64,000 nt of DNA. It comes from Gammaproteobacteria bacterium TMED78. Its GTDB lineage: Bacteria; Pseudomonadota; Gammaproteobacteria; Steroidobacterales; Rariloculaceae. The notes under the pieces were generated by a model. It ran no database searches. It was given only the letters and a program-made list of their open reading frames with translations, and was not told where the DNA came from. The stretch lies in NCBI GenBank assembly GCA_002171615.1, contig NHEF01000010.1:1-64000 (forward strand), written 5' to 3'. The position numbers and the translations under genes are program-made. This document shows positions 1,031-50,625 of the stretch, piece by piece. Every line of letters starts with the position of its first letter. The stretch's first letter is position 1.

Positions 1031-1720
1031 TTAAGATGTAATAAGAGTTTGAAATAATTCAGTATCAACTTTCTCTCTTTCAAGAAAATATTTTTTATAC
1101 TGATCAGTATTATTGGCCCTATTTTCAACCACATCAGAAAATAAACCGATCATACCAATAAATAATTCAGAAACTTCCCTCAAGCCTTGGCTTGCTCCAC
1201 TGTTAGCAGAGACATAATCACAATATTCTTTTTGTATAATAAATCTCTCGAATAATGGGCTCGAATCTTTTCTCATCAAGAAGCGAACACCGCACTCTTT
1301 TACCATGCCAACATCATTAATATCATCAAAAAAGCAGGCTATATTTTTCTTATCAATATTATAAGCAAGGCGAATTTTATTTATTACTAAGGACTTATTT
1401 TTCACTCCTGAGTATATAGAATTAAAATGTTCCCGCTTTGCAAAATTCTCTGCTAAAGAATTTTTCTCTCCAGTAACTATAATCGCTCTTGGTAATCTTT
1501 TATTTTTCAACCAAAGAGCAAACCTAAGCATATTGATGCCCATTGCATCAGATTCATTAAAGCCATTACCTTCATCCAGAGATTTAATACCGGAATTAAA
1601 AACACCATCCCAGTCAAAAATTAGAGTATTTATACATTCAAGGTTTTTTATAAGAACTGAAAATTCAGTTATAAACTTTCCACCTAAATCTTCAAAATTT
1701 TCCCTTATATTCTCAGACAT
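1031..1720 (-). CDS. HAD-superfamily phosphatase, KdsC-like (probable Kdo-8-phosphate phosphatase)
   Basis: A 229-residue HAD hydrolase without a large cap domain. HAD motif I is DWDGV (nucleophile D36, acid D38), motif II is the VTGE stretch, the motif III lysine lies in GVKNK, and motif IV is DDIND. The GVKNK spacing and the FNESDAMGINMLRFA region resemble KdsC, which removes phosphate from Kdo 8-phosphate. It is the last gene of the waaA-kdsA-transaldolase/CBS-HAD minus-strand operon, 9 bp after the previous gene, which supports the KdsC role. It is longer than a typical KdsC of about 180-190 residues, with an extra C-terminal helical tail of about 50 residues. The fold call is firm. The substrate is inferred from context, and another sugar phosphate is possible. 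Confidence 0.72.
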   Translation of the reverse strand: MSENIRENFEDLGGKFITEFSVLIKNLECINTLIFDWDGVFNSGIKSLDEGNGFNESDAMGINMLRFALWLKNKRLPRAIIVTGEKNSLAENFAKREHFNSIYSGVKNKSLVINKIRLAYNIDKKNIACFFDDINDVGMVKECGVRFLMRKDSSPLFERFIIQKEYCDYVSANSGASQGLREVSELFIGMIGLFSDVVENRANNTDQYKKYFLEREKVDTELFQTLITS

Positions 1721-1729
1721 AAGATATTA

Positions 1730-2767
1730 TCAAAGATAATCTTGGCCAAGCAGCCCTAGTTTAATAAGATCCTGAACATCTAGTATCCCCTCTGGAACAC
1801 CATTCCTTTCAACAATGATACTATCAACCTCGGACTCAGAAAAAAGTTTTACTGCCTCTTCTAAGTTAGCGTCACAATTTATAACTATTGGTGATTTAGA
1901 AAATCCTATTTTAATAAGTAGGTCCTCAAGTGTTGATTTTTCATTAGTTTGAAAATATCGCCTAATATCTCCATCAGTAAAAATACCTAGAATTTTATTT
2001 TTGTTATCAACCACGGTCACTGCCCCAAGTCGTGACTCAGTCATTTTGTTCATAGCAGATCTTAATGAATCATTTTGGCTACAAGTTGGATTATTTTTTC
2101 TAATCAAATCAGAAACTTTAACTGTTATCAGTTGGGTATGTTCTTTAAATTGCTCTGTTCCAATTAGACTTAGAGAGTTATCACAAAGATTTTTCATTAC
2201 CTTATATGGGACGGTACATACATGCACTCCCGCTAATATTGCCTGTCTGATATGCTCAGGATAGCGTACGGAAGAGAACATGACCTTACTAGAAAACCCA
2301 TACTTATCAATCATCTCTACACATTGCTCATATAGCTGTATTGCATCATGACCTTGGTCTTGAAGCCTTCCTGCCAATGGACAAACAAATGCCGCACCTG
2401 CTGCCATTGCCATATAAGCTTGATTAAGGGTATAAATCAGATGGATGTTAACTTTATGTCCCTTTTCAGTAAGCCTCTGGCAAGCAGTTACACCTTCATT
2501 TGAAATAGGAATCTTGAAAACAGGTTCATTTTTTAGCGGTAATGAAAGAATCCTATCTGCTTCACTTAAAATATCTTCAACAGACTCTCCTAAAGCCTCT
2601 ACCTGTAACTCAGGAACCATTCCTGATAGTTTAACAATAGCTCCATCAATATCTGTTATACCTTGTCTATGCATAAAAGTGGGAGTAGTGGTTAATCCTT
2701 TGATAAAGCCAAAATTTAATGCTTTCTCAATTTCATCAAAGTCTACTGAGTCTAAATATAATTCCAT
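1730..2767 (-). CDS. Transaldolase-family aldolase fused to a KdsD-like CBS pair
   Basis: A two-part protein of 345 residues. Residues 1-210 are a transaldolase/fructose-6-phosphate aldolase (FSA) type barrel. They align with E. coli FSA at the start (MELYLD with D6) and at the Schiff-base lysine K85 in FKIPIS. N28 of FSA is T here (TTTPT), T109 is H (NIHLIYT) and Y131 is L (CPLAGR). Residues about 215-345 are two CBS domains whose GIFTDGDIRRYF motif is very close to the CBS pair of arabinose-5-phosphate isomerase KdsD. No SIS isomerase domain is present. The gene lies between kdsA and a KdsC-like phosphatase, with 12 bp to kdsA. My inference is that the barrel supplies arabinose 5-phosphate or a related Kdo precursor, possibly from glyceraldehyde 3-phosphate plus a two-carbon donor. 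Fold and fusion are certain, the function is not. Confidence 0.85.
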   Translation of the reverse strand: MELYLDSVDFDEIEKALNFGFIKGLTTTPTFMHRQGITDIDGAIVKLSGMVPELQVEALGESVEDILSEADRILSLPLKNEPVFKIPISNEGVTACQRLTEKGHKVNIHLIYTLNQAYMAMAAGAAFVCPLAGRLQDQGHDAIQLYEQCVEMIDKYGFSSKVMFSSVRYPEHIRQAILAGVHVCTVPYKVMKNLCDNSLSLIGTEQFKEHTQLITVKVSDLIRKNNPTCSQNDSLRSAMNKMTESRLGAVTVVDNKNKILGIFTDGDIRRYFQTNEKSTLEDLLIKIGFSKSPIVINCDANLEEAVKLFSESEVDSIIVERNGVPEGILDVQDLIKLGLLGQDYL

Positions 2768-2779
2768 CTTCTTATCTTC

Positions 2780-3625
2780 CTAAATTGTTTTAGTTAACTG
2801 ATCACGAACTAAAGCATGAATATCTAGTAATGGTTTAACAAACTCTGAAAGATCATCCAAATAATACTGGCTTGCTGCATCACATAAAGCATCTGGTGGA
2901 TTAGGATGGGCTTCTATAAAAATTCCATCTACGCCAGCTGCTACACCTGCTCTTGATAAAACTGATAAGTACTCCCTGCTTCCTCCTTTTGGGTCCTTAC
3001 TAGGTATGCCATACTTTCTAATTGTATGGGTAATATCAAAAATCACAGGGTATCCTATCTGATTCAACAAAAGAAAGCTCCTAGGATCAACTACTAGATC
3101 ATTGTAACCAAAAGTATAGCCTCTCTCTGTAAGTAAAATTTTCTTACTACCTGAATCTTCAATCTTCTTAACAGGTTTTACCATATTATCTGGGGCAATA
3201 AACTGCCCATGTTTCAAATTCACAACTGCATTAGTTTTTGCAGCAGAAATAACCAACTCACTCTGCATACACAAATAAGCAGGTATTTGAAGAATATCAA
3301 CAACCTGAGATGCCGGAAATGCTTGATCCGGATAGTGAATATCCGTCAATAGGGGCAAATCAAATTCTTTTTTAATTTTTTCTAGCAATCTTAGACCCTC
3401 TTCTAATCCAGGGCCTTGGAAATAATCAAGCGAGCTTCTATTGTCTTTAGAAAATGATGATTTAAATATCAGAGGTATATTTAAGCTTGTCGCTATGTTT
3501 TTAATTTTTTCAGCAGTTTTTAGCATCATTGATTCCTCTTCAATGACGCAAGGTCCACAAATTAAAAAAAGTTGATCTGAGCCACAATCAATATCACCTA
3601 CCTGAACATGATTTTTTTTTATCAC
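2780..3625 (-). CDS. kdsA: 3-deoxy-8-phosphooctulonate synthase (Kdo-8-P synthase), metal-dependent type
   Basis: Condenses phosphoenolpyruvate with arabinose 5-phosphate to give Kdo 8-phosphate, a step in making the Kdo of lipopolysaccharide. The 281 residues match the family. The four metal ligands of the Aquifex-type enzyme are present: C26 in CGPCVIEE, H200 in FDITHT, E238 in FIEAH and D249 in DALCDA. This places it in the metal-dependent class rather than the E. coli class, which has Asn in place of the Cys. KSSFSKDNRSS and the GGSREYL loop are also typical. Its start overlaps the stop of waaA by 4 bp, so the two are translationally coupled. That the next gene is a transaldolase-CBS fusion bears directly on the source of its arabinose 5-phosphate. 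Confidence 0.95.
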   Translation of the reverse strand: MIKKNHVQVGDIDCGSDQLFLICGPCVIEEESMMLKTAEKIKNIATSLNIPLIFKSSFSKDNRSSLDYFQGPGLEEGLRLLEKIKKEFDLPLLTDIHYPDQAFPASQVVDILQIPAYLCMQSELVISAAKTNAVVNLKHGQFIAPDNMVKPVKKIEDSGSKKILLTERGYTFGYNDLVVDPRSFLLLNQIGYPVIFDITHTIRKYGIPSKDPKGGSREYLSVLSRAGVAAGVDGIFIEAHPNPPDALCDAASQYYLDDLSEFVKPLLDIHALVRDQLTKTI

Positions 3626-4899
3626 AATAAATTCATTCCTTTTAATATCCTAAAATTAGCTTGTGAGGCTCCCTGCCCTTCTAAAACCACTTCTTTAGCT
3701 CTTTTCCCTGAATCTAGACGAAGTTTATCGTCATTTACTAATCTGGTAAAAGCTTTTTTCAGGCTCTTTACATCATATACTTTATATCCTCCTCCTGCAT
3801 CAATCAAATTATTACCAACTTCTTCAAAGCTATAATTATGTGGGCCAAAAATAACGGGTATCCCTAGAATGGCTGGCTCCATTAAATTATGCCCTCCTTT
3901 GTCTCGAGACCTGTAATGTAAAGCACCTCCAACAAAAGCTATGTCTGATATACCATAAAAATCCCTAAGCTCTCCTAAGGTATCAAGAATTAGTATTTTT
4001 TTATCCCCTAATGCTTTAGATACTCCCCCCATTTTAGTTCTCCTTATTGAGGTAAAATTATAGCCTTTAATTTTACTCTCTATACTTTTAGAATCCTTAG
4101 GATACCTGGGTGCAATAACTGCTCTTACATTTTCTTGGCTCATAGCTAATTCGCTTAATGAATCTAGGAAAAGATCTACTTCTTCTAGATGAATACTTCC
4201 AGCAATAATTACTAAGTTATTCTTTGAATAATTAAGCTGATCTCTGATATCTATACTTTTATTTATTAAATCATCAATCAAATCATATTTCATATCACCA
4301 GTAATACTTATTCTTTCCTTATCTACCCCTAAATTAATTAGGCGATTTTTATAGCTATTTTTTTGAACACAAAAATAAGAAATGTTCCTCAAGAGAGGAA
4401 GTAATAAATAAGTCTTTATAATTTTACTTAATGATTGTTCTGAAATTTTTCCATTAACAACGAAAACTGGGATTTTTTTTCTACTAAGTGAATATAAAAA
4501 ATTAGGCCAGAAATCAGACTCAGCTAATATAACTAATCTAGGCTTTAAATTCTTGATGAAAAAATTAACAATGAAAGATAAATCAAAAGGGAAAAAAATG
4601 ATATGACAATCAGGATAATTTTTATAAGCAAGCTCGAGTCCCGACGATGAGCATACACTAATAATTATTTCTTCAGAGGAATCATTTTTTTTTATTAGGT
4701 CAACTAATTTTTTTAAAGAAATAATTTCTCCAGCTGATGCTCCATGCAACCAAATAGAAGAGCTATTTATTGGCTTTAAATTATAGCCGAACCTATAAAA
4801 TACCCTATAGAAATCACCTCTTAGTAATAATCTATAAATTAACCAAGGCGAGGTAATTATAATCAGAAAAAAATAAATTAAATTAAATACTAGTCCCAT
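3622..4899 (-). CDS. waaA: 3-deoxy-D-manno-octulosonic acid transferase
   Basis: Membrane-anchored GT30 glycosyltransferase that moves Kdo from CMP-Kdo to the lipid A precursor at the cytoplasmic face. The 425-residue length is normal. An N-terminal hydrophobic anchor (about residues 3-25) is followed by IWLHGASAGEI, which carries the conserved catalytic Glu (E58). The C-terminal GT-B half has FVGGALHYRSRDKGGHNLMEP, the family's nucleotide-sugar-binding region. It is the first gene of the minus-strand Kdo operon and overlaps kdsA by 4 bp. CMP-Kdo synthetase (kdsB) and the lipid A acyltransferases are not in the window. Whether it adds one, two or more Kdo units cannot be told from sequence. 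Confidence 0.94.
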   Translation of the reverse strand: MGLVFNLIYFFLIIITSPWLIYRLLLRGDFYRVFYRFGYNLKPINSSSIWLHGASAGEIISLKKLVDLIKKNDSSEEIIISVCSSSGLELAYKNYPDCHIIFFPFDLSFIVNFFIKNLKPRLVILAESDFWPNFLYSLSRKKIPVFVVNGKISEQSLSKIIKTYLLLPLLRNISYFCVQKNSYKNRLINLGVDKERISITGDMKYDLIDDLINKSIDIRDQLNYSKNNLVIIAGSIHLEEVDLFLDSLSELAMSQENVRAVIAPRYPKDSKSIESKIKGYNFTSIRRTKMGGVSKALGDKKILILDTLGELRDFYGISDIAFVGGALHYRSRDKGGHNLMEPAILGIPVIFGPHNYSFEEVGNNLIDAGGGYKVYDVKSLKKAFTRLVNDDKLRLDSGKRAKEVVLEGQGASQANFRILKGMNLL

Positions 4900-13035: not shown

Positions 13036-14025
13036 CTACGCGTCTCTTATCGCTCTTTTTACAAGATTTTCTAAAAGAGGAATCTTAAAATGATTATAAT
13101 TAAGAGGTGTTGCTCCTCTTATCGCTGCTTGGCCTGCTAAGCTAGCAGTATCATCATTCTTTGGGCTTCCCTTTACTACCTGCTCAACAACCGATAGCCT
13201 TCTTGGCGTGCACTGAACAGCACCAGCTACGATACGAATATCTTTAATAACATTATTTTCAATAATCATAGCTGCAGCTACGTTAACAAGTGAAAAATCC
13301 CAAGTATTCCTATCTGATACTTTTTCAAAATAGAAAGTAGCACCTGACCAATCAGTAGGAAGAATAACTCTAGCTAAAATCTCCCCGGATTGAATAATTG
13401 TCATTCTTTCTATGTCTATATCTGGCCCAATAAAGAAATCTTCAGCAGGAACCTCTTTCTCTCCATCAGGACCTCTTATTACCATTAGTGCGTCTAGGGC
13501 AACCATTGCAGAAGCAGTATCTGATGGTGAGACAGCCACACAACGATCTGCTCCCCAAAGGCAATGCTCTCTATTTTGGCCTTGAGGAGTATCCGCATAA
13601 CAAGAATTCCCTCCAGCTCTGTAGCAGTCTACTCCGTAGCGGTAATACCAACATCTTGCATCTTGATTTAAATTTCCACCTATGGTGCCAGTATTCCTAA
13701 TCTGTGGACTTGCTACTTTTCCTGCAGCATCACTTAGCAAGGAAAAATTACTTTTAATTATTGGGTTAGATACAATCTCAGTTAGAGAGGTTAACGCGCC
13801 AATTTCAAGACCTCTATTAGTTTCAGTAATGCCTTTTAATTCATCAATATTATTCAAATCAATTACATTTGGTGCATACTTAGCTCGATCTTTGAACCAA
13901 GAAAATGTATCGTGACCTCCAGCTAAAACCCAACTATCTCCTCTAAATCTATCTAAAAGATTTATAGCATCATCCAGATTATCAGGCTGAAATAGCTCAA
14001 AACTTTGCATCATATCTTTTGACAT
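13036..14025 (-). CDS. Molybdenum hydroxylase FAD-binding subunit, PaoB/HcrB-like with extra cysteines
   Basis: The 329-residue middle subunit of the xanthine dehydrogenase/aldehyde oxidoreductase family. FAD-binding motifs are VLAGGHDTF (residues 33-41) and NTGTIGGNLNQDARC (111-125). It carries a cysteine cluster, C125, C134, C142, C155 and C162. This matches the region that holds an additional [4Fe-4S] cluster in E. coli PaoB and in the 4-hydroxybenzoyl-CoA reductase beta subunit. The CVAVSPSDTA stretch after the cluster is also typical of that branch. The gene overlaps the 2Fe-2S subunit gene at the stop/start junction. An extra cluster would suit one-electron transfer to a cytochrome rather than to oxygen or NAD. 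Confidence 0.9.
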   Translation of the reverse strand: MSKDMMQSFELFQPDNLDDAINLLDRFRGDSWVLAGGHDTFSWFKDRAKYAPNVIDLNNIDELKGITETNRGLEIGALTSLTEIVSNPIIKSNFSLLSDAAGKVASPQIRNTGTIGGNLNQDARCWYYRYGVDCYRAGGNSCYADTPQGQNREHCLWGADRCVAVSPSDTASAMVALDALMVIRGPDGEKEVPAEDFFIGPDIDIERMTIIQSGEILARVILPTDWSGATFYFEKVSDRNTWDFSLVNVAAAMIIENNVIKDIRIVAGAVQCTPRRLSVVEQVVKGSPKNDDTASLAGQAAIRGATPLNYNHFKIPLLENLVKRAIRDA

Positions 14026-14645
14026 CAGCTTCTCTCTGCGGCTTTCATAACTGAGTTTAAGTAATGATCATATGCGCCACACCTACATAAGTTTCCTGAC
14101 ATGGCCTGACGAGCTTCATCCCTTGAGGGATTTGGATTTGATTCAAGCAACGCAACAGCTGACATAATCTGGCCTGGAGTACAAAAACCACACTGAGGCC
14201 CAAGCTCATCTATCATTGCTTGCTGAACAGGGTGTAGCTCCCCATTAGGGCCTTGCAAACCTTCTATAGAAGTAACTTGCTTATCTCTTACAGAATGAGT
14301 AAGTGTAGAACATGAATAATTTGGTACCCCATCAACTAGCAAAGTACATGCTCCACACTCTCCTCTATCACAACCTAACTTTGTACCAGTCAAGCCAAGC
14401 TTATACCTTAGAGTCATAGCAAGAGTTTCATTAGGAAGAACATCTACCCTGCGAGTCTGGCCATTGACATTTAAAGAAACTAATCGCTCCACCGAGCCTA
14501 AAACAGACTGATCAGGAGAGCAGCCTGCCAGACTTCCAAAAATATAACCGCTTGATGAAACTGCTGTACCAGAAGCTATAACGCCTTTAATAAAAGCTCT
14601 TCTTGATGACCTATTTTTTTCTAAAATTTTATTTTTTTCAAACAT
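14025..14645 (-). CDS. Molybdenum hydroxylase 2Fe-2S subunit with Tat signal
   Basis: A 206-residue iron-sulfur subunit. The N terminus carries a twin-arginine signal, SRRAFIKG (R15, R16), followed by a hydrophobic stretch ending near LAGCS, so the folded complex should be exported to the periplasm. The plant-type [2Fe-2S] site is CDRGECGACTLLVDG plus a later Cys (YSC). The second, CO-dehydrogenase-like site is CGFCTPGQ and NLCRCGAYDHY. It is the second gene of the operon, between the large molybdopterin subunit (17-bp gap) and the FAD subunit. As in the E. coli PaoA system, only this subunit has the export signal and the others probably travel with it. Confidence 0.93.
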   Translation of the reverse strand: MFEKNKILEKNRSSRRAFIKGVIASGTAVSSSGYIFGSLAGCSPDQSVLGSVERLVSLNVNGQTRRVDVLPNETLAMTLRYKLGLTGTKLGCDRGECGACTLLVDGVPNYSCSTLTHSVRDKQVTSIEGLQGPNGELHPVQQAMIDELGPQCGFCTPGQIMSAVALLESNPNPSRDEARQAMSGNLCRCGAYDHYLNSVMKAAERS

Positions 14646-14662
14646 AATTTAAAAACCATTAA

Positions 14663-17065
14663 TTAAGCGGTATTTACATCAAGAGGGCCATGTGACTGCT
14701 CTCGACCAGAGACTGCATTAACAATCATATCTGGAGTTATTGGAACTCGATTAAAATAGTGCCCACCTAATGCATCTGAAATAGCACAAACTAAAGCTGC
14801 AGCAGCACAACCTTGGACTGGCTCACCCATTCCCTTAGCACCAACAGGATTCTGCGGATCCTCAACCTCAGCTGCAGCTGTATTCATAACAGAAGGCACA
14901 TCTAAATAAGTAGGTGGCTTATGATCTAAAAAACCTAGATTACCTGGAAGGCCATTCTGAGGATCAAAGATATGCTTTTCAAAAGCTGCTAAACCAAAAC
15001 CTTGAACCGCCCCTCCACTTATCTGCGTAGATAATCCTTTTGGATGAAGAACAGTTCCACAGTCAGAAACTCCTAAATAATCTAATATTTCGAACTTACC
15101 AGTTTCAGTATCTAGCTCTATTTCAATAAACCCGACAGCTATTCCAGCAACCAAGCCATTTCTATATAAATTATCTTTTGATACTCCAATTAAACCAGTT
15201 CCTGCTAAACCAGAAACAGAAGACTTAGTGATAGGGTGTAAATCATCTGGCATATCATATCCAGAGTACTTACCACCAATCTCAATTGCTCTTTGGGCAA
15301 TAGTGGAAAATTTTATTCTTTTTGTTGGGTCTGATATAAGAAAAACCTCTTCTCCTGATATATCATAATCTTCGATAGACCCTCCCATATCAAGAGTAGC
15401 AATTTCTTTTATCTTCTCAAGAGCGTCAACTGCAGCAACATAGCTTTGACGAGTGGTAGTGAAAGATGTATTACTCCCACTTTGAGTTGGGCTCCAAGCA
15501 AGATGCTTTCTGCTATCACCTCTAACAACAACACAATTATCCCAATTATATTTAAGCACCTCTGCTGCCACTCTTGAAGTTGATGTATGAGAATATGTTC
15601 CTAAATTTCCAACGCCACTATGAATATGCAACTTCCCATCAGGCGTAATTCTAATCAAGCCATCATAACCATTTCTACCAGCAGGATGAAACCCCTGACC
15701 AACACCAACACCACGCACTTTTGAGCCATTCTTTTGACCGCTTCTTAGCTTTATCTCATTCCACATAGATAAGCCTTTATCTAAACATTCAGCTTGATAA
15801 GCACTTGTGACAGGTCCTTGGTCTGAATAGTATTTAGCATCATTATCTGCTGCATTAATTCTTCTGATCTCTACTCTATCAATATTAAGCTGCTTTGCAG
15901 CTTTATCAATTAGTGGCTCTACTGCGGCTGCAATTTGATTCTCGCCTGGGCCCCTCATAGCTGCTCTTGGTGGTGTATTTGTCTCAACAGGCACTGCCTG
16001 CATCCTTAAAGCTTCTGGTTGATACAATAAAGAAATCGCAGAAGCTGCGGCATCAAAATCATCAAAACCTCTGTATGGTCCATTTTCTTGAACAACAAAA
16101 AGATCAGCGGCAACCATTCTACCATCACTTCGAAAGCCTAACTTCACCCTTCCTTGGAAGCCTGGCCTTGCTCTACCAATATAAAATTCTTCTGCTCGAC
16201 TAATTCGCATCATTACTGGTCTTTGAATCTTTTTTGACATAAACGCAGGAATAGCCATTGTAGAATATGGATTTGACTTTGAGCCAAAACCTCCCCCACA
16301 AAACTCACCTATATAAACTAAATTTTCAATATCTATTCCCAAAAAACTTGCTAGACCTGGCATAACTGCTGACTGGCTTTGGGTAGAGCCATAAATAAAA
16401 CATTTATTATTCTCCCAATTAGCCATAGTTGTCCTTGGCTCCATACATAAATGTGAATTACCAGCAGTAACAAATGTCTCATCAAGAATTAAATCGGAGG
16501 AGTCAAAACTAGATTGAATATCTCCAAAGCTCCATGTCTCTGTAGCTTCACCCATAGGTAAAGTATTTTCATCAACGCTTATAAAGTCCCTTGCTGTCCA
16601 TTTGTGAGAGATAATCGAACGCGGCCTAGAAAAGCTCATTGTATTTCCATCAGATCTTGCGTCAGGACCTCCTGGATATAAGCTTTCAAGCGGGTCTACA
16701 GTAAAAGGCAATATATCATAATTAATCTGAATGCTATCAATTGCATTTTGTGCAATAGCCTCACTAGTTGCTGCTACCGCAAGGATTGGATCACCTACAT
16801 ATAAAGGCTCATTAGTTAAAATTGGCTCAACTACATTACTCTGCTCTGGGACTTCGTCAGCAGTCAACACCCCTAAAACGCCTTCCATAGCTAACGCTTC
16901 AGAATAATCTATATTAGATATTTTTGCGTGAGGAACGGAACTAGTAAGTAATCTGCAAAAAACCATTCCCTCAAGACGAAAATCTTCAGCAAACTTTGCC
17001 TTACCTGTGACCTTCCCATGTATATCAGGAGGAATAAAATCTTTTCCGATTAATTCATACGCCAT
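14663..17065 (-). CDS. Molybdenum hydroxylase large (molybdopterin-binding) subunit
   Basis: An 800-residue catalytic subunit of the xanthine dehydrogenase/aldehyde oxidoreductase family. It begins with the usual IGKDFIPPDIHGKVTGKAKF segment, contains the GGGFGSK loop near residue 257 and ends with KGMGEPVQG, whose Glu (E748) is the conserved catalytic base at the Mo centre. PRAAMRGPGENQ, a substrate-pocket and cofactor region, is also present. The protein has no signal peptide of its own. It is the first gene of a seven-gene minus-strand operon, and the 176-bp gap upstream should hold its promoter. The substrate (an aldehyde or N-heterocycle) cannot be read from the sequence. No XdhC/PaoD-type maturation chaperone is seen in the window. 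Confidence 0.92.
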   Translation of the reverse strand: MAYELIGKDFIPPDIHGKVTGKAKFAEDFRLEGMVFCRLLTSSVPHAKISNIDYSEALAMEGVLGVLTADEVPEQSNVVEPILTNEPLYVGDPILAVAATSEAIAQNAIDSIQINYDILPFTVDPLESLYPGGPDARSDGNTMSFSRPRSIISHKWTARDFISVDENTLPMGEATETWSFGDIQSSFDSSDLILDETFVTAGNSHLCMEPRTTMANWENNKCFIYGSTQSQSAVMPGLASFLGIDIENLVYIGEFCGGGFGSKSNPYSTMAIPAFMSKKIQRPVMMRISRAEEFYIGRARPGFQGRVKLGFRSDGRMVAADLFVVQENGPYRGFDDFDAAASAISLLYQPEALRMQAVPVETNTPPRAAMRGPGENQIAAAVEPLIDKAAKQLNIDRVEIRRINAADNDAKYYSDQGPVTSAYQAECLDKGLSMWNEIKLRSGQKNGSKVRGVGVGQGFHPAGRNGYDGLIRITPDGKLHIHSGVGNLGTYSHTSTSRVAAEVLKYNWDNCVVVRGDSRKHLAWSPTQSGSNTSFTTTRQSYVAAVDALEKIKEIATLDMGGSIEDYDISGEEVFLISDPTKRIKFSTIAQRAIEIGGKYSGYDMPDDLHPITKSSVSGLAGTGLIGVSKDNLYRNGLVAGIAVGFIEIELDTETGKFEILDYLGVSDCGTVLHPKGLSTQISGGAVQGFGLAAFEKHIFDPQNGLPGNLGFLDHKPPTYLDVPSVMNTAAAEVEDPQNPVGAKGMGEPVQGCAAAALVCAISDALGGHYFNRVPITPDMIVNAVSGREQSHGPLDVNTA

Positions 17066-50292: not shown

Positions 50293-50330
50293 CTGATTAC
50301 TCCCACCGATAATCTAAATTTAAATAAATT

Positions 50331-50500
50331 ACAGGCCGGTATACGGGCTTATGAGCTAGAATAATCTATCATTAATCGCCTTCCCATGATTTAAACAGTG
50401 GCACTTTGATCATGATTAACTCATTTACCGTTGCGGGGGCAGCAATGGCTTTGTTATTACTCACCATTTTCCCGTTTATCCCTCATAGGGCACCTACAAA
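50331..50500 (-). ncRNA. Cobalamin (B12) riboswitch
   Basis: Read on the minus strand, the leader of btuB carries the ordered cobalamin riboswitch elements: GTAGGTGCC and ACGGGAA, then AAAGCCATTGCTGCCCCCGC, GCCACTG, GGGAAGGCG (the B12 box region) and AGCCCGTATACCGGCC near the 3' end. Binding of cobalamin should repress btuB and its downstream genes, probably by blocking the ribosome-binding site that lies about 40 nt further on (GGTGGGAG). Confidence is high because all core blocks are present in the right order. Confidence 0.95.
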
Positions 50501-50625
50501 CTAGAAAGTTATTATGATTAATTTTTTTTTAAAGACAAGAAGTATTTAAATAGGTTATCAAATCTCTATCTTTAATTAATATAATATGGCACTTTTTAAC
50601 ATTAGGAAATAATACAACTAAAGCA

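Follow-up and report, generated by a model that had tools for sequence, protein, structure and literature searches.

A Kdo operon with a transaldolase-CBS fusion

The DNA analyzed here (the window) is the stretch of 64,000 nucleotides at positions 1 to 64,000 of contig NHEF01000010.1 from Gammaproteobacteria bacterium TMED78. At 1031-4899 on the minus strand, the ORF (open reading frame) list shows a compact operon of genes for 3-deoxy-D-manno-oct-2-ulosonic acid (Kdo), in the order waaA-kdsA-fusion-HAD phosphatase. Kdo is a core sugar of the outer membrane, and the first step of its synthesis is normally carried out by KdsD. The third gene encodes a fusion of a transaldolase-family barrel with two CBS domains, proposed here to form D-arabinose 5-phosphate (A5P) in KdsD's place. 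The kdsA and waaA genes overlap by 4 bases, and the fusion gene lies 12 bases from kdsA and 9 bases from the phosphatase gene. A first-pass annotation, made from the sequence alone, had described the same tight minus-strand set, and both the ORF positions and Pfam agree with it.

The fusion (1730..2767, minus strand; 345 amino acids) was characterized from Pfam, its relatives, and an AlphaFold model with a mean predicted local distance difference test score (pLDDT) of 90. Pfam matched TAL_FSA at residues 3-209 (E 3e-33) and, from residue 218 onward, a pair of CBS domains (E 1e-20), and the domain scans found no SIS domain in the protein. The barrel occupies residues 1-213 (2129..2767, minus strand) and the CBS pair residues 216-338 (1754..2122, minus strand). 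Seventeen relatives aligned end to end at 61-72% identity, and both domains were present in 49/49 diverse members scanned. An assembly or frame artefact, or a chimera, was ruled out by end-to-end relatives in hundreds of genomes. No NCBIfam model names the fusion or reaches its cut-off over the whole protein: TIGR00875, the transaldolase/FSA equivalog, failed with 142.3 bits against a cut-off of 245.95, and TIGR00393 (KdsD/KpsF) covered the CBS part only, at 56 against 203.7. The nearest named relatives of that part were KpsF/KdsD.

The CBS pair, which contains the motif GIFTDGDIRR, had been called KdsD-like but without the SIS domain, and this description held. A tree built from 72 CBS pairs placed 23 from fusions and 29 from KdsD/KpsF together on one side of a branch that separated them from 20 others, with a Shimodaira-Hasegawa-like approximate likelihood ratio test (SH-aLRT) support of 97.6. 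The motif (V/I)FTDGD(L/I)RR or near forms of it were common to fusion and KdsD pairs and occurred in 0/20 of the others. Among the top solved relatives was 4o9k, the CBS pair of a KdsD-type isomerase, whose ligand we take to be cytidine monophosphate-Kdo (CMP-Kdo). On that basis the CBS pair of the fusion probably senses a late product of the pathway, with CMP-Kdo as the obvious candidate.

The nearest solved folds to the barrel were decameric transaldolases (3r8r and 1vpx), with 3r8r at Z 29 and a root mean square deviation of 1.4 over 210 residues. Residues D6, T26, E57, K85, N107, R134, S166, and R168 were invariant in 81 fusions, so that the Schiff-base Lys85 and the phosphate site are retained. 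In contrast, T28, H109, and L131 were found in 81/81 fusions at positions where 19/19 ordinary transaldolases have N, T, and F, and Y112 replaces the F of the same 19 proteins. Pocket geometry was read from homologous positions: residues 28, 109, and 131 correspond to N35, T156, and F178 of TalB, whose N35A and T156A mutants have solved structures, and we know of no studied counterpart of position 112. Because these four residues are replaced while the catalytic lysine is kept, the site appears to have been remodelled for another reaction with the means for imine chemistry retained. Of the earlier label "transaldolase/FSA barrel," the transaldolase family stands and the likeness to FSA does not, since E57 and N107 match TalB rather than Q59 and L107 of FSA. 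A housekeeping transaldolase was ruled out by the different pocket residues together with a separate ordinary transaldolase in the TMED78 genome (C17:7992-8609).

Distribution of the fusion and of KdsD

The TMED78 genome (1.57 Mb, 98.8% complete) was examined with protein-family searches. Its only two SIS domains lie in one 613-amino-acid ORF with the layout of GlmS, and the genome is therefore without KdsD; the genome-wide search for a SIS-type KdsD that had been suggested as a check thus found none. KdsB was detected elsewhere in the genome over its cut-off, so the end of the Kdo pathway is intact.

A scan of GTDB genomes with the alignment of the 17 relatives gave 530 confirmed fusion loci. 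Taxonomy and gene neighbors were counted in the best 80 of these (54-72% identity), which came from Gammaproteobacteria, Desulfobacterota, Bacteroidota (mostly Cytophagales), Planctomycetota (Scalindua), and Nitrospirota. The kdsA gene adjoined the fusion in 55/80 loci, among them the two from Scalindua and nearly all those of Proteobacteria; 50/80 had a HAD phosphatase of the window's subtype nearby. The Desulfobacterales fusion cluster also has kdsB and waaA. The fusion is thus a widespread, undescribed family, usually beside the Kdo synthase gene, in many bacteria that lack KdsD.

Presence of the fusion and of KdsD was compared across three orders. Among 147 genomes of the window's order, with KdsD counted over the family cut-off, 16 had only the fusion, 126 only KdsD, 3 both, and 2 neither (Fisher P 1.5e-16). 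The three dual carriers all belong to one genus (g7), and the sole carrier in another family of the order (G123) is without KdsD. For Cytophagales (118 genomes, 96 with KdsA), the corresponding numbers were 40 with only the fusion, 54 with only KdsD, 2 with both, and 0 with neither (P 5e-25), so that the functional slot was filled in every one of the 96 KdsA-positive genomes. In the Desulfobacterales (116 genomes), KdsD was missing from 5/6 carriers and present in 99/110 others (P 1.5e-4). One hit in this order that at first looked CBS-less (G407) is a fusion interrupted by a frameshift or a gap. With the three orders pooled, KdsD was missing in 63/69 fusion carriers and present in 281/312 non-carriers, and it was likewise missing in 45/50 carriers drawn from several phyla. 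That KdsD was overlooked through incomplete assembly is unlikely, given the completeness of TMED78 and the 63/69 carriers without it.

The alternation of the two genes thus recurs in several unrelated groups. Together with the missing KdsD of TMED78, the linkage to kdsA, and the type of the CBS pair, it strongly supports the proposal of the first-pass annotation that the fusion takes the place of KdsD. Occurrence mostly in genomes with kdsD had been named there as evidence to the contrary; both genes were found in only 6/69 carriers, of which 5 also encode a canonical KdsA as a second copy.

Companion enzymes of the fusion

The kdsA gene of the operon (2780..3625, minus strand) encodes a Kdo-8-phosphate synthase that passed TIGR01362 with 318.6 bits (cut-off 314). 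It is of a distinct subtype, designated KdsA′, with the motifs KDNRS, CMQ(T/S), KHGQF, IRKY, and CDAASQ where canonical KdsA has KANRS, CRQ, KKGQF, VQ.P, and SDGPN. KdsA′ is about 45% identical to the canonical KdsA of the same order, and its signature was found in all sampled fusion-linked copies. This divergence could mean either co-evolution or another substrate. Nine dual carriers (the three of g7, four Woeseiaceae-like gammaproteobacteria, and two Cytophagales) each have two KdsA proteins, one canonical and one KdsA′. In the gammaproteobacterial ones KdsD lies within an Escherichia coli-like kdsD-kdsC-lptC-lptA-lptB cluster, and in the two Cytophagales, from a reading of unannotated ORFs, it lies beside likely polysaccharide ABC transport genes, like capsular kpsF.

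Two Cytophagales genomes bear on the substrate of KdsA′. G222, assembled as one contig of 7.03 Mb, and G250 both encode KdsD but lack the fusion. Their only KdsA is a KdsA′ with the whole signature; it adjoins the same HAD subtype in both and also kdsB in G222. Since, among known sources, only KdsD can feed KdsA′ in these genomes, KdsA′ most likely uses A5P, and as KdsA′ is usually accompanied by the fusion, the fusion most likely makes A5P.

In several phyla, a DegT-type aminotransferase gene and an iron alcohol dehydrogenase gene lie beside KdsA′ (L205, 5766-8103; L207, 2239-4570; L061, from 3668; L127, from 1370). The two resemble KdnA/KdnB of 8-amino-Kdo synthesis; NCBIfam gives neither protein a KdnA/KdnB name.

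The phosphatase gene (1031..1720, minus strand; 229 amino acids) encodes a distant KdsC relative proposed to be the Kdo-8-phosphate phosphatase of the cassette. Its best NCBIfam relatives are KdsC and KDN-9-phosphatase, far under the KdsC cut-off (TIGR01670, 47.4 bits against 106.95). No canonical KdsC scored over the cut-off in the TMED78 genome. Canonical KdsC was also missing in 16/16 fusion-only genomes of the window's order and present in its three dual ones, and the HAD protein therefore probably stands in for KdsC in the cassette. Absence of KdsC is not by itself specific for the fusion, as several small KdsD-bearing genomes (family f13) also lack it. The f13 genomes of the window's order with KdsD but no KdsC over the threshold were G027, G051, G061, G069, G075, G081, G087, G093, and G098. 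The first-pass annotation had thus assigned kdsA and the KdsC-like phosphatase to the right families, without recognizing that both are distinct subtypes.

The waaA gene (3622..4899, minus strand) encodes a Kdo transferase of 425 amino acids, matched by PF04413 (Glycos_transf_N; E 6.6e-45); the top NCBIfam WaaA model gave 269 bits, under its cut-off of 438. Many related operons carry another, weaker homologue of WaaA behind the phosphatase gene, in the order waaA-kdsA-fusion-HAD-waaA2 (L049, L052, L054-L057, L059, L060, L065, L069, L080, and L081). The window has the first copy only, with trxB in the position of the second. Farther along the window are a cobalamin riboswitch (50317-50512, minus strand; Rfam RF00174, 98 bits) and a three-gene cluster (13036-17065, minus strand) that by eye resembles a molybdenum hydroxylase, with an FAD subunit, a 2Fe-2S subunit with a Tat-like leader, and a large subunit.

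Proposed reaction and comparison with known systems

Taken together, the data indicate, with a probability that we put at about 0.85, that the fusion supplies A5P to the adjoining KdsA in a non-orthologous replacement of KdsD. In the proposed pathway, the fusion would convert a pentose 5-phosphate to A5P, KdsA′ would turn A5P into Kdo-8-phosphate, the HAD phosphatase would release Kdo, KdsB from elsewhere in the genome would activate it to CMP-Kdo, and WaaA would transfer it to lipid A. The replacement itself is supported by the genome distribution; A5P formation is an inference, and the chemistry one that deserves little weight. Several points count against the proposal. Several active-site motifs of KdsA′ are not those of canonical KdsA, and the dual carriers keep two parallel sets, which could point to a different product. 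About half of the Bacteroidota fusion loci have no adjoining kdsA, and one genome (G185) has the fusion and, elsewhere, KdsD, yet encodes only one KdsA, which is a KdsA′. The Fisher P values ignore the relatedness of the genomes, most of the surveyed genomes are incomplete metagenome-assembled genomes, and the sensing of CMP-Kdo by the CBS pair is suggested by analogy with the 4o9k structure.

A different product would follow if the fusion, KdsA′, and the phosphatase formed a separate pathway to an ulosonic acid not known before, one that stands in for Kdo in the core of many Gram-negative bacteria, canonical Kdo then being absent from fusion-only species. The fusion would supply another aldose phosphate, which KdsA′ would join to phosphoenolpyruvate. 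The distinct active-site signature of all sampled fusion-linked KdsA′ copies, the noncanonical phosphatase, and the two complete KdsA types of the nine dual carriers would all fit. This is nevertheless improbable, because G222 and G250 run KdsA′ on KdsD alone, KdsB and WaaA of the canonical families work with the cassette, and the fusion and KdsD alternate strictly in Cytophagales, as fits supply of the same metabolite; some clusters, moreover, have the gene pair that we take to be KdnA/KdnB-like, and KdnA/KdnB act on Kdo. Less probable still is that A5P comes from elsewhere, for example from the isomerase half of GlmS, with the fusion a regulator or part of another pathway. Eukaryotic GFAT can isomerize ribulose 5-phosphate to A5P and complement an E. 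coli mutant in arabinose 5-phosphate isomerase (PMC11301363), and the TMED78 genome has its GlmS-like ORF. However, GlmS fails to rescue the kdsD gutQ double mutant of E. coli, which is nonviable (PMC10448790), and a gene with no part in the pathway would neither alternate with KdsD nor adjoin kdsA across phyla.

If A5P is the product, three routes to it can be weighed. The leading candidate, put forward tentatively, is epimerization of ribose 5-phosphate via an imine with Lys85. The lysine would form the imine with the C1 aldehyde, and His109/Glu57 would remove and return the C2 proton to give the C2 epimer A5P, with no free intermediate; H109, at the position where transaldolases have a water-holding threonine, is the candidate base. 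A transaldolase has been crystallized in covalent complex with A5P (PDB 3upb; Light and Anderson 2014, as cited in PMC7895386), so the ancestor could already have held A5P as an aldehyde imine. Rather more doubtful is a true aldose-ketose isomerase in a borrowed barrel, acting like KdsD on ribulose 5-phosphate. Isomerases are often hosted by TIM barrels, and H109 and E57 could, to judge from their conservation, serve as acid and base. Ribulose 5-phosphate is also the substrate of KdsD itself (PMC10448790). Against this, the Schiff-base lysine is invariant and an imine formed at C2 of a ketose cannot yield an aldose; a KdsD-like isomerization therefore needs another role for the lysine. An aldolase joining glycolaldehyde and glyceraldehyde 3-phosphate seems unlikely. 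FSA and TalB F178Y have been assayed on these substrates, TalB F178Y being the most active and A5P one of the possible products (PMC8208507), and the fusion keeps the lysine, the phosphate site, and the donor-site Asn. But residue 131 is Leu rather than the Tyr of FSA and TalB F178Y, the fusion has lost N28 and T109, which known aldolases use, and glycolaldehyde is no main metabolite and scarce in free form. As the pocket is unlike those of FSA and transaldolase at their conserved positions, imine epimerization or isomerization is at least as likely as an aldol reaction. Of the non-isomerase route suggested at the outset, the replacement of KdsD is strongly supported, and an FSA-type aldol reaction is not demonstrated.

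The fusion suggests an undescribed route to A5P. Searches of the open literature turned up no paper on a transaldolase-CBS enzyme that forms A5P, with subscription papers and preprints outside the coverage. In several phyla, KdsD's step seems to have passed to an enzyme with a different fold; the carriers include cultured Cytophagales, with Thermonema rossianum and Raineya orbicola as fusion-only examples. If so, a missing step of the Kdo pathway would be filled in hundreds of genomes, in a rare case of a protein that swapped its catalytic domain and retained the regulatory one, and imine chemistry may here give a first natural route to A5P.

Among known systems, the KdnA/KdnB pathway of 8-amino-Kdo in Shewanella has a counterpart in the gene pair beside KdsA′ in G222 and G250 and beside the fusion in L061 and L127; the window's operon differs in having no such pair. 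The window's phosphatase, like KdsC (YrbI family), is a HAD phosphatase, but it is longer and is found where canonical KdsC is missing. KdsA′ passes TIGR01362 and has the GPC, NRS, and ERG motifs of the metal-type Kdo-8-phosphate synthase KdsA, whereas its own signature stands where the canonical KANRS/RQT/KKGQF motifs would be expected. With transaldolase and FSA (PF00923; TalB, FsaA), the fusion shares the fold, the Schiff-base Lys85, Asp6, Glu57, Asn107, Arg134, and Ser166; it differs by N28T, T109H, F112Y, and F131L, by the added CBS pair, and by coexisting with an ordinary transaldolase. With KdsD/KpsF/GutQ (SIS plus two CBS domains), it has in common the lineage and motif of the CBS pair, the place in the Kdo pathway, the linkage to Kdo genes, and the mutual alternation across genomes, but it carries a transaldolase-family barrel instead of the SIS domain and lies beside kdsA rather than in a kdsD-kdsC-lptCAB cluster.

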